64,000 nucleotides of DNA, taken from Diphasiastrum complanatum (lineage: Eukaryota; Streptophyta; Lycopodiopsida; Lycopodiales; Lycopodiaceae). Location of the stretch: the NCBI GenBank assembly GCA_029204225.1, contig CM055110.1, forward strand, positions 41,149,862-41,213,861, written 5' to 3'. The position numbers were made by a program, and so were the translations under genes. Shown piece by piece: positions 23,157-62,085 of the stretch (positions are counted from its first letter, which is position 1; each line of letters opens with the position of its first letter). The notes below the pieces were generated by a model. That model did no database searches, had not been told where the DNA came from, and was given only the letters and a program-made list of their open reading frames with translations.

Positions 23157-23227
<71 letters not shown>
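23157..23227. repeat. (GA)n microsatellite
   Basis: About 71 bp of GA units between LINE A and the 5' LTR of Copia 1. The LTR lacks its first 14 bases (TGTTAGAAATAAAT) at this join. Confidence 0.95.
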
Positions 23228-23229
<2 letters not shown>

Positions 23230-23513
23230 ATGCTAAAGTTAATCCATAGGTTACTTTGACCCAAAAGGTCGATATTTGTGTAACCATGGGTATTTAGTTA
23301 TTTAGGCCATGTTAAGTTTGTCTTTATTTGTGATGGACCCAATTTTGGTCATGTACTGACTTGTGGGTCCTTAGAGGCCTAATTTGGTTTAGGGGCCCTA
23401 TCTTGACTTTTGGGGGTGCCCTACATTCAGTAAGTAGGTAGAGTACATATTGGCTTATTGTGTCACATTTTTCAGTTTTGGCTAAGCATTGCTCATCATT
23501 ACTTGTGTTGCTG

Positions 23514-23553
<40 letters not shown>

Positions 23554-23641
23554 GAGGAGGGCGCCCAGCCTCTTCTCTCTTGTGTCTTGTGGAGATTGAT
23601 TGATAGCTAGATCTTGGTGCCTTGACTCTTGTTTTCCTTCA
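23226..23641 (+). repeat. Copia 1 5' LTR
   Basis: Matches 28862-29244 but lacks the first 14 bp. It includes a (CT)n run (about 23517-23551) and the palindrome-bearing GGAGGGCGCCC (23556-23566), and ends TTTTCCTTCA directly before TGGTATCAGAGC. The 3' LTR has a deletion of about 49 bp relative to this copy. Confidence 0.8.
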
Positions 23642-23888
23642 TGGTATCAGAGCCAAGTTAGACCTAACAGTTCATGGTGTCAAAGCCATGGTTAGGTGGC
23701 CCAAGTTGTGGGGCAGGTGACAGCTAGGACCCCAACCAAGTGTGGCTTGAGGGGGGGTGTTGGAATATCAATCCGCACTCTAGAGAGAACTATCAAATAG
23801 GGCGGATAGCTCAGTGGTAGAGCATCCCGAGGTCCTAGGTTCGAATCCTAGTCTGTCCATCCATAATATGATCTATGGATTTCTAACA
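23642..23888 (+). mobile_element. TRIM-like unit inserted at the Copia 1 primer-binding site
   Basis: The unit starts with TGGTATCAGAGCC (a primer-binding site), has about 100 bp of non-coding interior, a polypurine tract GAGGGGGGG (23749-23757), and then a 131-bp LTR-like segment (23758-23888) that begins TGTTGGAA and ends TTCTAACA. Immediately after it, TGGTATCAGAGC recurs (23889-23900) and the usual Copia leader follows. Copia 3 has a single such site here, so it shows the state without the insert. Size and layout are those of a terminal-repeat retrotransposon in miniature lacking its left LTR. A template switch at the shared primer site would produce it. Confidence 0.7.
23800..23859 (+). 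other. tRNA-like sequence inside a 131-bp LTR
   Basis: A 7-bp acceptor stem (GGGCGGA with TCTGTCC, two G-U pairs), a D arm (GCTC...GAGC) and a perfect T arm (CTAGG TTCGAAT CCTAG) are present in tRNA order and spacing. The A box TAGCTCAGTGG and B box GGTTCGAATCC match Pol III promoter consensus. Only 11 bases separate the D and T arms, so the anticodon arm is deleted. The body resembles plant tRNA-Cys, a tentative match. It is not a functional tRNA gene. Confidence 0.75.
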
Positions 23889-24631
23889 TGGTATCAGAGC
23901 TAACGGATCTGCAACAAGCTTGTATGTTGGTGCCGTACCAGAAGAGGAGCTACTCTACTTTTTTGTTCTGAAATTTCAGCATCCTGCTGATTTTTCCAAG
24001 TGGAGTTTGGATCAGCTTTTTTGTCTCTTTTCAGGTTGAAGGAGGGCGCCCATCATAGATCTTGGAGGAGCAATTTTGCTGCTCAAAAATCAGCATCTCA
24101 AATCTGAATTTTTTGCAGCCAGTTTTCAGCAAGTTTTGTTTGGAGGAGGGCGCCCAAAAATCTGCTTCTAATTTGGGGTTTTGGAGCCTCTTACCTTGCT
24201 GTTTTTTTTTTCAGGTTTGCAGTTGTGAAGGAGGGCGCCCAATATTCAGCATACCGTATTTTGGGTTAGGGCAAATTTGTGGCTGGAAAATTGCAAATTT
24301 TCAGCAAGCAGTAGGGTGCTTTCAACAGCCCTATTGAAGTGTGTGTTGATCACACTATTTGGCTTCCTAATTGGGTTTCGGTGTAGGCTTCATTCGAAGC
24401 TAACCTAATTTTCAAGAAGCTGGTTTTTTTGTGCAGAAAAACAACCATCTATCCATTATCTTTTGGGCACTTTGGTTGCAAATTGGAAGACATCTGTTGC
24501 TCCTATTTTCAGCTTATTGTTTGCTGCAAATTTTTGAGTAGATTTGGTTGTGGAACGGCTCTCTTTTCCTATCTACTACAAGCTGAAATTCTATTGGAGG
24601 TAAGGCTAAAGAATCAAAAGCTATCGGTTCT
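23889..24631 (+). promoter_or_regulatory. Copia 1 second primer-binding site and untranslated leader
   Basis: TGGTATCAGAGC (23889-23900) pairs with initiator tRNA-Met. The leader carries GGAGGGCGCCC at 24041-24051, 24145-24155 and 24230-24240, besides one in the LTR; each contains the palindrome GGGCGCCC. The same motif is kept in the Copia 3 leader. A role in RNA dimerisation or packaging is inferred only. Confidence 0.55.
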
Positions 24632-25720
24632 TTGTTTAGTGAAGATCGGTTGGATGGCACAAACTACTCCTTGTGGAGTTACATGATGAAGAATCTTCTC
24701 ATAGCGAAAGGGCTGTGGGATTTGGTCAATGGTGATGAGGAAAGGCCTCCTTCTTTGGCACCTTCTACACCTCGTGGATCATCATCATCAACATCATCTT
24801 CTACATCTTTGGAAGAACAAAAGAAGTGGGATAGAAGGGATGCACAAGCACATTCTATGGTTGCTCTTGCTGTGAAAAGATCTATCTTACCGCTTATTAA
24901 GCCTTGTAAGACATCTAAAAGTGCGTGGGATACACTTTATACTATGTATAGAGTCAAAAATCCAGCAAGAGTGGTGTATCTCAGAAATCAACTTTCTTTG
25001 TTGAAGATGCAAGAAGGGGATCAAGTGACCAATCACTTGACGAAGATGAAGGATCTTCATGAGGAGCTTTTCAATATTGATGAGATAATTGAGGATGCTC
25101 AATTTGTTTCCATTACACTCAACTCATTACCTTCCTCTTATCTTCCATTTGTTTCATCTTTGAGTATCTCTCTTAGAGAACATCAACTCTCCTTTGATGA
25201 ACTTGTTGGGCTGCTTCTTCAAGAGGACCAAACGAGGCAAAATTTTGCGGGTGACACTCAACAAGATCGAGCTTTCTTCACGAAAGGCAAGGGCAAAGAC
25301 AGATCAAAAGGAAAGGGGAAGCCTCCTTCCAAGGATGAGCTCAAGGATTGTAAGAAGAAGCTTGCGAAAGAGGAGAGTAAAGGAATTGATACTAGTGCTT
25401 CACTTGCTACTTTGGAGCAAGAGTTTGAAGCTCGTGGTGATCTCTTCAACCAAGACTATGCTTTTGTGTCTAATATTACTTCTACTAGTACTTCTACATC
25501 TATGAGGAATTCAGGTTCTGTTTTGCAAGTTGCTGATTTTCAGCCCATTGAATGGGTGATTGATAGTGGCACTACTAGTCATATGACTTCTCGGAAAGAA
25601 GCATTCACTAAATTAGTGAAAGTGCAAAATGGAAGCAAGGTACAATGTGCGGATAATGCATCTTATTCTGTTCATGGAATTGGAATTGTAGCCATCATTT
25701 TGCCTAATGGTGAAGAATAG
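24632..25720 (+). pseudogene. Copia 1 Gag and protease start
   Basis: A 362-residue frame. The Copia Gag signature LDGTNYSLWSYMMKNLL is near the N-terminus, followed by AWDTLYTMY, VVYLRNQLSLLKM and LVGLLLQEDQTRQ. A Lys-rich part (KGKGKDRSKGKGK) stands where a zinc knuckle would be; I see no CCHC. The protease site WVIDSGTTSHMTSRKEAF is at about residues 310-327. The frame stops at 25720. The rest of the protease and the pre-integrase segment, seen in Copia 2, are missing by deletion. Confidence 0.8.
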
Positions 25721-25737
25721 TTTGTGGTCCAATGAGG

Positions 25738-26430
25738 ACCGAATCCATTGAAAAGTGCATCTATTTTGTGACTTTTATTGATGACTTTCCCCGTTTTACA
25801 TGGATCTATCCTATGAAGGCTAAATCGGAAGTTTTTCAACATTTCAAAGATTTCTAGCAATGGTGGAAAATCAGTTTGGGCATTCTTTGAAAGACCGTAC
25901 ACACCGATCGAGGAGGGGAATACATTAAGAGTACGTTTGGTGCATTTCTTCAAGAGAAGGGAATTCTACATCAAATGACAACTCCCTATATGCCTCAACA
26001 AAATGGTGTTGCCGAGCGAAAGAATCACACACTTATGGAGATGGCCCGTTGCATGCTCAAAGCAAAGGGGCTGCCTCACAAGTTTTGGGCTGAAGCAGTT
26101 ATAGCGACAGCATACATAAGCAATCGTTGTCTTACTAAAGCATTGAAAGTATTAACTCCTTATGAAGTTTGGTATGGGAAGAAGCCTTCAATATCTCACT
26201 TTTGCATTTTTGGTTGTACGGCTTATGCTTTTGTTTCGGATAAACTTCGTACAAATCTTGAGGATAAAGGAGTTAAATGCATTTTTGTTGACTATGGTAG
26301 TGAAAGCAAAGGCTATAACCTGTTTCATTTGAGCATTAACAAGATTATTGTTAGTCGTGATGTGCATTTTGATGAAAAGAATTCATTAGGCCCCATCTCA
26401 TATCTTGAAGGGTCCGCCCACATAGTGTGA
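25738..26430 (+). pseudogene. Copia 1 integrase
   Basis: Starts at GPNPLK/GPMRTESIEKCIYFVTFIDDF after a frame change. A stop interrupts near 25857. DRGGEYIKSTFG, HQMTTPYMPQQNGVAERKN and ARCMLKAKGLPHKFWAEAV follow, the conserved D-D-E region of Copia integrase. It ends with IIVSRDVHFDEKN. At least one stop and one frameshift are visible. The same region occurs in a shortened, inverted state in Copia 3. Confidence 0.78.
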
Positions 26431-27775
26431 ATGTTGAAGTTTTTCCAGATTTGGTACTATCTTTTATTTCTGGAGATAAGGAGCAGCAATCAACCAGTTT
26501 CGAACTGCCCAACACCTCATCAAGTTTAGAGCCTAATGTTCATCAAGAACCGCCCATTGTTGCTCAAAATCAGCCTGCAGGAACTGTTGGACAGCAAGGA
26601 CCAATTTTGGAAGATCTTGGACAGCCAAGTGCAGTGTCGGAAGATCTTGGACAGCAAATTGCAAGAAGAGACATGGCTGTTGGACAGCCTAAAACAGTCT
26701 CACGGTGGCTGTTGTCGACTTTGCGGGACATCAAAGTAAGTTCATTTATTCATGGAAAGACACGTGCCTCTACAAAATCAGTGGACTATGTTGATTTTTC
26801 AGATTTTGCTCTTACATCTCATGGAGACGTTGCGGAAGAACCTGATTTTTATGAGCAGGCCAAGGGAGTAAAATGTTGGGGGGATGCGATGCAAGATGAG
26901 TATGACTCACTCATGAGAACCAAATTTGGGTTCTTGTTGATCTTCCTCATGGGAAGAAGGCAATTGGTTCTAAATGGGTATACAAAATCAAGTATAAGGC
27001 AGATGGTACCATTGAAAGGTACAAGGCAAGGCTCGTTGCCAAAGCCTATGCTCAGCAAAAGGGGATTGATTATGAGGAGACTTTTTCTCCTACTGCTCGG
27101 ATGACTACCGTGAGGGTAGTAACCTCTTTGGCTGCCCATTTTGGTTGGTGTTTGCGGCAACTTGACATAAAGACAGCATTCCTCAATGGTGATCTCAATG
27201 AGGAAGTGTACCTTCAAAAACCTGCTGGTTTTTTGGTTGAAGGCCAAGAAGATAAAGTTTGTCTTCTCAAGAAGACACTTTATGGACTGAAGCAAGGTCC
27301 GAGGATGTGGTATCAAAAGATACATGCCTATTTTTGTGATCGTGGGTTTACTAATAGTCCTAGCGAATCTACTCTTTATGTCAAGTATAGTTCAGATTAT
27401 ATCATCATTATTTTGCTTTATGTTGATGATATTATTGTTACGGGAAGTAATGAGCAGCAGATTGATGCCCTAATACTTGATCTTGGTATGGTTTTTGAAG
27501 CCTCAGATTTAGGCCTATTGCACTTTTATCTTGGTCTTAAATTTGTACAAGAAGGGGCTGGAATTTTCATCTCTCAAGAACGCTACATTGGGCAGATTTT
27601 GAAGCGGTTCAAGATGGAAGATTGCAAGCCGGTTGCTACACCTATGGAGACAGGCCTGAAATCAGTCAAGATGACGATGAACCATTTGATACTACTTTAT
27701 ATTGTCAAGCTATTGGCTGTCTCATTTACCTATGGAATTCAAGACCAGACATTTCTTATAGTGTCTCACTCATGA
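26427..27775 (+). pseudogene. Copia 1 reverse transcriptase
   Basis: 26427-27104 covers the variable linker and the RT start, with a frame change within the segment. From 27101 the frame reads FGWCLRQLDIKTAFLNGDL, LYGLKQGPRMWYQK and the catalytic ILLYVDDIIVTGS (about 27412-27450). LLHFYLGLKF and ISQERYIGQILKRF follow. It ends at a frame change before the solo LTR. The YVDD motif is intact. Confidence 0.82.
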
Positions 27776-27800
27776 GTCAATTCATGCATGCCCCAATGAC

Positions 27801-28244
27801 TGTAGGAATCCAGAATCAAGACTATTCATTAACACAAAGTATTCTCAAAGAGAAGAGAGAGATGGTTAGATGACCCTCTTGTAGAAACTTGTGGACCAGC
27901 CAATATGAACAATAGATTGCTTAACAAAAGTGTGTCTCATACAAATGAATGGCTACATATAAGTAGTCCAAGATGGCTATCTACCTTCATGACTGTTGGC
28001 TGTCCAATAACTTGACTAATGGCTATCTAGCTACCATAAGTTACATAAAATAATTAAGTACCCCAAATAACAAGTTAGGTACTTAATTCACATGTATAGG
28101 CCCCTAGTGGACCCACGAGTCCCTGCAAGTTAGTTTCATACTAACTTGGGCCTAAAATATAAATGACCATGGTTACACAGATGTCGACCTTTTAGGTTAT
28201 AGTAGCCTATGGCTTCTACATCATTTACATTTATTATTCTAACA
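27801..28244 (-). mobile_element. solo LTR (444 bp) in Copia 1
   Basis: The segment begins TGTAGGAATC, ends TTCTAACA and is flanked by ATGAC (27796-27800 and 28245-28249). Removal joins MHAPMT to SHWKALKRIF, restoring the Copia RT to RNase H reading. Its right part resembles the Copia 1/3 LTR in reverse, so it belongs to a related, diverged family, oriented minus. No internal sequence remains. Confidence 0.85.
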
Positions 28245-28249
28245 ATGAC

Positions 28250-28822
28250 ATCACATTGGAAAGCGTTGAAGAGGATCTTTCGATATCTCAAGAAACAAGA
28301 AGTCATGGACTAATTTTTCCTGCTTGTGATGATGCATGTTTGGTTGGTTTTAGTGACTCGGATTGGGGTGAAGATCAAGACACTAGACGCTCTACAAGTG
28401 GACATTGCTTTTTCTATGGAAATTTTGCAATTTCCTGGTCAAGTAAAAAGCAGCCCACTGTTGCTACTTCTTCTAGTGAGGTAGAATATAGAGCGATATT
28501 TTCAGCCACAATGGAGTGTTTATGGCTGAGAAGACTACTTGTTGACATGAAGTTTGGCGAGCCCTCAGCCACTCTTATCTTGAGTGATAGTCAGAGTGCT
28601 ATTGCCATTGCACGAAATCCTGTTTTTCATGCGAGGACGAAGTACATCGAGATCCATTATCACTTTGTTTGGGAGAGACTTCATGATGGCGACATTTTAC
28701 TTGAATATTGTCCTACAGAGGATAATATTGCAGACCTCTTCACTAAGGCGTTGCCTAGAGTCAGATTTGAAGCTTTATGCAAAGCTTTAAATTCAATACC
28801 ACGTGGTGGATTTTTTACATAG
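28250..28822 (+). pseudogene. Copia 1 RNase H
   Basis: After SHWKALKRIFRYL and a frame change, the frame from 28256 reads GFSDSDWGEDQDTRRSTSG, ISWSSKKQPTVATSSSEVEY, LILSDSQSAIAIARNP and CPTEDNIADLFTKALP. These are the standard RNase H blocks of plant Copia elements. The stop at 28822 precedes the polypurine tract. Confidence 0.8.
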
Positions 28823-28861
28823 TGAAGATTTCAGTTTTTTCGCATTGTCATTTAAGGAGGG

Positions 28862-29118
28862 TGTTAGAAATAAATGACTATGCTAGAGTTAATCCCTAGG
28901 TTACTTTGACCCAAAAGGTTGAGATTTGTGTAACCATGGGTATTTAGTTATTTAGGCCATGTTAAATTTGTCTTAATTTGTGATGGACCCAATTTTGGTC
29001 ATGTACTGACTCGTGGGGTGCCCTACATTCAGTAAGTAGGTAGAGTACATATCGGCTTATTGTGTCACATTTTTCAGTTTTGGCTAAGCATTGCTCTTCA
29101 TTACTTGTGTTGCTGTTT

Positions 29119-29165
<47 letters not shown>

Positions 29166-29242
29166 AGAGTGCCCAACCTCTTCTCTTGTGTCGTGTGGAG
29201 ATTGATTGATAGCTAGATCTTGGTGCCTTGACTCTTGTTCTC

Positions 29243-29244
<2 letters not shown>
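28862..29244 (+). repeat. Copia 1 3' LTR
   Basis: Starts TGTTAGAAATAAAT after the tract AAGGAGGG. It lacks about 49 bp relative to the 5' LTR, has a (CT)n run at 29126-29161, and ends a few bases early at TTCTCCT, where a (GA)n tract begins. Confidence 0.8.

Positions 29245-29289
<45 letters not shown>
29245..29289. repeat. (GA)n tract at LINE B 3' end
   Basis: About 45 bp of GA units, which are CT units on the LINE's own strand. They lie where a poly(A) tail would be expected and abut the Copia 1 LTR. Confidence 0.9.
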
Positions 29290-29291
<2 letters not shown>

Positions 29292-61393: not shown

Positions 61394-62085
61394 CAGAATT
61401 TATGCTTGTAGTAGATAGGAAAGAAAGCCCTTCCAAAGCCAAATCTACTCAAAAATTTGCAGTAAACAAAGAGCTGAAAATAAGAGCACAAAATGTCATC
61501 CAATCTGCAACCAAAGTGCCCAAAAAATAATGGATAAATGGCTGTTTTTCTGCACAAAAAGCCCAGCTGCTTGAAAATGAGGTTAGCTTCGATTGAAGCC
61601 TACACCAAAACCCAATTACGAAGCCAAATAGTGTGATCAACACACACTTCAATAGGGCTGTTGAAAGCACCCTACTGCTTGTTGAAAATCTGCAATTTTC
61701 CAACCACAAATTTGTCCTAACCCATAATAGGGTTTGCTGAATTTTGGGCGCCCTCCTCCAAGTTTGCAAACCTGACAAATCAGCAAAGTAAGAAGGTTCT
61801 AAAACCCAAAATAGAAGCAGATTTTTGGGCGCCCTCCTCAAGACAAGACTTGCTGCTGGTTGCAAAAAATCAAATTTGAGATGCTGATTTTTGTGCTCCA
61901 AAAATTGCTCCTCCAAGATCCATGATGGGCGCCCTCCAACCTGAAAAGAGACAAAAAAGCTGATCCAAACTCCACTTGGAAAAATCAGCAGGATGCTGAA
62001 TTTTCAGATCACAAAGTAGAGTAGCTCCTCTTTTGGTAGGGCGCCAACATACATGCTTGCTGTAGATCTGGTTGCTCTGATACCA
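61394..62085 (-). promoter_or_regulatory. Copia 3 leader and primer-binding site
   Basis: Minus leader with GGGCGCCCTCC at 61746-61756, 61827-61837 and 61927-61937 (plus one in the LTR at 62161-62171), at the same relative places as in Copia 1. The primer-binding complement GCTCTGATACCA is 62074-62085. A single primer site exists, without the insert seen in Copia 1. Confidence 0.65.

Follow-up and report, generated by a model that had tools for sequence, protein, structure and literature searches.

A Helenus-type TRIM unit at the primer-binding site of a Copia element in Diphasiastrum complanatum, and reciprocal composites of TRIM and Copia elements

One extra unit at a Copia primer-binding site

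How did a short segment with a tRNA-like body, bounded by two copies of the same primer-binding site (PBS), come to separate the long terminal repeat (LTR) of a Copia element from its leader? We addressed this question in a 64,000-nucleotide stretch of D. complanatum DNA, hereafter the window. The initial annotation had described a primer site, an interior of about 100 bp, a polypurine tract (PPT), a 131-bp segment and a second primer site. Both PBSs were found to be exact, and these boundaries were borne out. The relevant features are the following.

23226-23641, plus strand: 5' LTR of the Copia element, matching its 3' LTR (28876-29244) and copy B (54196-53799); a (GA)n microsatellite takes the place of its initial ~14 nt
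23642-23653, plus strand: primer-binding site 1, exact PBS TGGTATCAGAGC, between the Copia LTR and the TRIM interior
23654-23757, plus strand: TRIM interior, 104 nt, with the G-rich polypurine tract GAGGGGGGG at its 3' end, ending at 23757
23758-23888, plus strand: LTR of the Helenus-type TRIM, 131 nt, TG...CA; other copies have paired LTRs with 5-bp target-site duplications (TSDs)
23800-23859, plus strand: tRNA-like block with A-box and B-box regions (Rfam RF00005, 50.8 bits); 13 nt of the anticodon arm deleted
23889-23900, plus strand: primer-binding site 2, exact PBS TGGTATCAGAGC, between the TRIM LTR and the Copia leader
23901-28861, plus strand: leader and interior of the Copia element; the frames of its gag, integrase and reverse transcriptase pieces are broken, and the leader aligns with that of copy B
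28862-29244, plus strand: 3' LTR of the Copia element, start set by eye; the last ~3 nt are lost into a (GA)n tract
62074-62085, minus strand: PBS of copy B, a junction without the TRIM unit (alignment and BLAST)

We could confirm 23642-23888 (247 nt) as a single unit (PBS, interior, PPT and LTR) of a Helenus-type TRIM. This element is a non-autonomous LTR retrotransposon, about 404 nt long, with a tRNA-derived block in its LTRs. Full interiors at other loci are 97 to 100% identical to 23654-23757, and the interior of one array unit is 94% identical.

In the host Copia element, open reading frames of the interior matched the Pfam families Retrotran_gag_2, SH3_retrovirus and RVT_2, and for the last piece (28196-28819) no family was matched. 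(GA)n tracts at 23157-23227 and 29245-29290 stand in place of the outer ends of its LTRs. Because these ends run into (GA)n, the TSD of the element is unreadable. The two LTRs differ by a K2P distance of 0.046 and have no derived site in common when compared with copy B. A protein search with the gag piece gave 5 matches (best, 56%), and the integrase piece of another Copia element in the window showed about 46 to 59% identity to proteins among the 120 matches listed. Several of the integrase matches carry Gb_ names, which we take to stand for Ginkgo.

Copy B of the same Copia element lies on the minus strand at about 53.8 to 63.5 kb, contains nested inserts and has GAGAC on both sides (by eye). 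Its LTR, PBS and leader are joined directly at 62074, which thus represents an empty site, and the window copy differs from it by exactly one extra unit at the PBS. Together with the further genomic junctions reported below, this uninterrupted copy substantiates the earlier suggestion that the unit was captured at a Copia PBS.

The leaders of the window Copia and of other elements follow the same PBS TGGTATCAGAGC, meaning that an autonomous element shares the PBS of the TRIM. Apart from the PBS, no similarity between the TRIM and the Copia element was detected in the window, and recombination between their LTRs would therefore not be expected to make the joint. We also considered whether the TRIM interior derives from any of five leaders in the window, Copia leaders or others, and rejected this, since no score exceeded the best of 100 shuffles.

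A TRIM family with a tRNA-derived block in its LTRs

We searched the window unit against the 1.74-Gb assembly of the host and obtained at least 80 matches, the best 40 of 1205 candidates being scored. Thirty loci were cut out (numbered with the prefix L), and 16 of these are full single elements. An LTR of 144 nt, an interior of 116 nt and a second LTR of 144 nt were found exactly in 13 of the 16 full copies. The 5-bp TSD was perfect in 13 copies, had one mismatch in two and was absent from one. The LTR pairs showed K2P distances between 0 and 0.043 (median, 0.025) in these copies, which were picked by their likeness to the query. Among the remaining 14 loci, L024 and L003 have the same flanks as L023 and L002, L027 overlaps L011, and L001 is the window itself. 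Tandem arrays (LTR-int-LTR-int-LTR) are present at L011, L018 and L025, that of L011 having five LTRs and a TSD, and the left LTR is wholly or partly missing at L002, L013, L016, L020, L022, L026 and L030. At L022, the TRIM starts at the PBS, without a left LTR, inside a Copia interior, the overlap of the flanks being at most 3 bp (by eye). The repeating unit has 247 nt in the window and mostly 260 nt at the other loci. As the TRIM reading of the initial annotation had anticipated, the host's own genome contains full copies, TSDs and arrays; the confirmation asked for beforehand, namely intact elements in the source genome that have two LTRs and 5-bp flanking duplications, was obtained. Exact patterns gave 0 matches in the collections of viral contigs and genome contigs.

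Within the window LTR, cmscan matched the Rfam tRNA family at 23800-23859 with 50.8 bits (gathering threshold, 29; E value for the window, 6e-8). In the covariance alignment, the D arm, the T arm and the acceptor stem are kept, and 2 nt replace 13 model positions of the anticodon arm. This is in agreement with the first description of the block as a tRNA body with T arm, D arm and acceptor stem and without an anticodon arm. ARAGORN called no tRNA over the window, and the folding energy of the block was not better than that of its own shuffles (z = -0.97), so that its likeness to a tRNA rests on the covariance model.

The full LTR of the family harbors a 73-nt cloverleaf. Indeed, 10 Rfam tRNA matches of 36 to 53 bits were obtained for 10 TRIM LTRs (six loci scanned), and most full LTRs measure 144 nt and contain a 73-nt tRNA match. 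Aligned with the family LTRs, the window LTR is short of 13 nt in the anticodon arm; the absent arm is a 13-nt deletion peculiar to the window copy. Run on 13 family loci, ARAGORN named the cloverleaf Thr, Pro or Ile depending on the copy, and with an identity that varies in this way the cloverleaf is unlikely to serve as a tRNA. A probable role of the block is that of an internal promoter for Pol III. Extra conservation of the block within the family was not seen (2.4% versus 0.9 and 0.6% in the LTR flanks, at loci selected for resembling the query, a limit of this comparison). The absence of TTTT was rejected as a mark of Pol III selection, as 24 to 32% of the window stretches of equal length likewise lack it. 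No 5S rRNA-like sequence was found in the LTR; 23700-23950 matched the tRNA family only (E values up to 0.1).

The tRNA block of L073, used as a genome query, returned at least 41 matches (best 40 of 880 candidates scored), and two places were read. L121 (G000:C20:2666360-2666930) consists of an LTR of 153 nt, an interior of 69 nt and a second LTR of 153 nt, with CAAAT on both flanks and Rfam tRNA matches of 57 and 54 bits in the LTRs. At L122, the interior lies between the terminal part of one LTR and another LTR, in which the tRNA match scores 52 bits. The tRNA blocks of the two families align well, the unusual anticodon arm included, and the rest of the LTR is unalike by eye, as would be expected if both had taken the block from one kind of tRNA-derived source. 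L073 had also been considered as a SINE insertion, that is, a tRNA block in an LTR with a duplication of TTTTCACA. This was discarded: the genome search showed TTTTCACA to be part of the repeat itself, and L121 and L122 identify it as the LTR end of the second tRNA-bearing TRIM family.

TRIMs with tRNA-derived LTR blocks have already been named Helenus (TRIMp3; Kojima 2024, PMC10886601), and in our literature search a Helenus retrotransposon with a tRNA was found in this article alone. The present family resembles Helenus in having a tRNA-like block in both LTRs, a PBS, a PPT and 5-bp TSDs, the TSD length reported for plants and fungi (PMC10886601). Its size is that of a TRIM (<1000 bp), it has two LTRs, and their tRNA-derived sequence includes A and B boxes. 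Association with an autonomous element that shares the PBS, as found here, has likewise been reported for Helenus, and tandem arrays have been described for the zebrafish Helenus LTR-11_DR (PMC10886601). The dimensions differ: the sole plant listed in that article, Selaginella moellendorffii, has an LTR of 120 and an interior of 85, whereas those found here are 144 and 116, plus 153 and 69 in the second family. Pol III transcription of Helenus is regarded there as expected, though unproven (PMC10886601). The present TRIM is thus a new Helenus member, and the genome holds a second such family.

Cassandra (PMC7215508) is similar in its small-RNA gene block in the LTR, its tandem arrays and its PBS, which is the same TGGTATCAGAGC, but it carries 5S rRNA in its LTR where the present TRIM has a tRNA. 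The initial annotation had proposed an analogue of Cassandra. That a tRNA block lies in the LTRs of a real TRIM family holds true; the kind of element, however, is not new, as it had already been described as Helenus (PMC10886601).

Junctions and mirror composites across the genome

We favor, with a probability of roughly 0.7, the explanation that the TRIM unit was joined to the Copia element during reverse transcription, through co-packaging of both RNAs and a switch of the reverse transcriptase at the PBS. A TRIM RNA and a Copia RNA would be packaged in one Copia particle. Minus-strand synthesis on the Copia RNA would then reach the PBS and, rather than stopping, switch to the identical PBS on the TRIM RNA. 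There, the TRIM U5-R would be copied, followed, after the usual R-to-R jump, by U3, the PPT and the interior up to the next PBS, on which the plus-strand strong-stop DNA of Copia would land. The predicted product, Copia LTR-PBS-TRIM interior-TRIM LTR-PBS-Copia interior-Copia LTR, corresponds to the anatomy of the window. A start on the TRIM RNA would lead to the mirror order, TRIM LTR-PBS-Copia interior-Copia LTR-PBS-TRIM interior-TRIM LTR, which was also observed (see below). If both RNAs were TRIM, a switch at the PBS would yield tandem arrays; both reciprocal products would contain a complete internal LTR. We infer the order of the switches, the co-packaging and the Pol III transcription.

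Junctions were searched in the plant's own genome with exact patterns, the window being counted; reversed patterns served as controls and gave 0 matches each. At 53 places, the base after the TRIM LTR end and the PBS is not the C that the TRIM itself has there (control, 0). Reading 46 of these revealed the TRIM's own interior with an altered base after the PBS in 8 cases and foreign sequence in 38. The foreign continuations lead into the leader of the window Copia (17, window included), into a leader type on contig C5 at 49.6 to 51 Mb (7), into a third type (5) and into others (9). Beyond the window Copia the leaders were grouped by eye, and the partner leaders fall into at least 8 groups. At L081 to L083 and L091 to L094 (G000:C5, 49.6 to 51 Mb), TRIM-LTR/PBS copies sharing a single leader type are clustered, perhaps in a centromeric region.

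For the other joint, AACA, with which the TRIM LTR ends, stands before the PBS and TRIM interior at 516 places; among these are L076 and L077, where the body of the LTR is that of Copia. At 72 places the base at -4 is other than A (control, 0), and 11 of these read GACA, obtainable by one point change. Exact junctions between the Copia LTR end, the PBS and Helenus number 32, the window among them (control, 0). The two joints seen in the window, in the order foreign LTR-PBS-interior-TRIM LTR-PBS-foreign leader, were found together at L001, L020, L065, L073, L076, L077, L079, L084, L086 and L102. LTR and leader are both those of the window Copia at L001, L020, L076, L077, L079 and L102, the leader match of L102 stopping after 26 nt, and L065 and L086 have a common other LTR end and a common other leader. 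Joints away from the PBS were seen at L018, L022 and L064, and one 12 nt upstream of it at L076, which count against the switch reading; since the search targeted PBS junctions, the share of the PBS among all joints is not an unbiased estimate.

Some arrangements stand apart. L064 and L105 involve another Copia family, in which the 3' half of the TRIM LTR replaces the end of the element's own 5' LTR; at L064 the TRIM probe matched once, so the 3' LTR seems to be without the TRIM part. At L088 (G000:C10:31627300-31628800), the TRIM LTR end and PBS run, at CAGAGC, into sequence coding for a Copia RNase H (by eye). By pattern search, four places of this type lie on C10, 971 to 997 bases apart, and two on C1072, 975 apart.

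The insert corresponds in length to precisely one circle (247 nt in the window, mostly 260 nt at other loci), as would also result if a one-LTR circle of the TRIM (or of Copia) recombined, after integration, into an element via the 12 to 14 nt shared at the PBS. TSDs around the host element would persist, and one-LTR circles have been discussed as a source of tandem LTR elements (PMC11899658). However, the left joint of L076 lies 12 nt upstream of the PBS, inside the LTR, and the junctions are more numerous than this kind of event would suggest. Moreover, by textbook standards 12 to 14 nt is short for homologous recombination. We consider this route unlikely.

Could a single ancestral Copia-TRIM chimera, formed once and then multiplied as an element, account for the junctions? 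The 32 Copia-type junctions, the shared variants CCTATA (L020 and L079) and CCTTCA (4 of 32) and at least four pairs of right-junction loci with common upstream sequence would fit. Indeed, the loci of these pairs (L071/L072, L063/L106, L104/L107 and L064/L105) are probably copies of one event. The left joints vary, however (CCTTCA, CCTATA, CCTAACA and CTCT/GGATTTCTAACA). This variation, the eight or more leader groups (by eye) and the occurrence of both orders point to several events, some of which may then have been copied, and a single origin appears improbable to us.

At other loci the order is reversed, with a TRIM LTR beside non-TRIM DNA, then the PBS and then a Copia leader. Here, the switch model predicts an element ending in Copia LTR-PBS-TRIM interior-TRIM LTR, with a TSD. 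We fetched the far ends of five such mirror loci, on C4, C6, C13, C14 and C17. A TRIM LTR was present at the far end in all five, and the order Copia LTR-PBS-interior-TRIM LTR lay within the stretch in 4 of the 5. The Copia LTR of C6 was located in L095, beside a partial interior, and the right-hand PBS of C13 has lost one base. Three mirror composites end in host DNA, with the TSDs TATCT/TATCT (C4), ATTGC/ATTGC (C14) and GTATA/ATATA (C13, one mismatch). C6 and C17 run on into a further TRIM unit, and C17 also has an array on the left. Between the composite ends, Copia was read in part in C13 alone; the joints are 4.6 kb (C4) and 9.4 kb (C14) apart. The outer TRIM LTRs of the three composites differ at 9/144, 7/143 and 12/144 positions, no less than LTRs of different loci. 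For L109 (contig C2579), none of the Copia and TRIM probes matched L111, the stretch 4.5 to 5.7 kb further on in which the Copia end should lie. The differences between the outer TRIM LTRs, the result for L109 and the lack of a common derived site in the two LTRs of the window Copia do not favor the switch model.

Ordinary nesting followed by deletion, in which a TRIM inserted beside the Copia PBS and subsequently lost its left LTR, would be compatible with L022, L026 and L030, which lack all or part of the left LTR. This scenario nevertheless demands insertion at the same base in several partners and a precise loss up to the PBS, and both reciprocal orders occur; we therefore regard it as highly improbable. 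A template switch at the shared primer site, as suggested in the initial annotation, is the best of the readings weighed, and the reciprocal composites strengthen it.

Relation to known complexes and implications

Template switching has been published as the source of three-LTR complexes (Sabot and Schulman 2007, PMC1950507). Like the composites described here, these have two interiors, an internal LTR and an outer LTR pair. They are also flanked by TSDs; here, the duplications are perfect in two of the three mirror composites that end in host DNA and one mismatch off in the third, and the ends of the window element are eroded. Against the high likeness of outer LTRs that marks such complexes stand a K2P distance of 0.046 for the window Copia and 7 to 12 differences in about 144 nt for the mirror TRIM pairs. 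In the published complexes, close relatives are joined through a switch between R regions (PMC1950507), whereas here unrelated families are joined at the PBS. Tandemly arrayed TRIMs (PMC4717578) and tandem LTR elements (PMC11899658) have the same LTR-int-LTR-int-LTR structure as L011, L018 and L025. The arrays in the consulted parts of these two articles are of a single family, whereas the cross-family version found here separates a switch from LTR recombination. The consulted part of PMC10886601 describes no PBS-joined Copia composites for Helenus, and no TRIM-Copia composites joined at the PBS were found among literature titles and abstract openings. The reciprocal PBS composites thus extend template-switch complexes from close relatives to unrelated families, which looks new as far as the literature was searched.

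With these data, the origin of tandem LTR arrays becomes testable. In rice, a 2025 study of arrays could not separate an origin by LTR recombination from one by retrotransposition (PMC11899658). The composites join families without LTR likeness and therefore point to a retrotransposition-type route for arrays. Which autonomous element moves a TRIM becomes testable as well: PBS-joined composites may represent fossils of co-packaging that name the partner. For Cassandra, there is no indication of a mobilising autonomous element, according to Kojima (PMC10886601). Furthermore, two Helenus-type families are added from a plant genome, where PMC10886601 lists one plant species. More tentatively, and with somewhat less than even confidence, we suggest that in this plant unrelated LTR retrotransposons may regularly be joined into reciprocal heterodimers through strand switching at a shared PBS. 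TRIM arrays would then be the corresponding homodimers, the genome would keep a record of which autonomous element packaged which TRIM, and Copia could integrate between putative Pol III-type TRIM ends.
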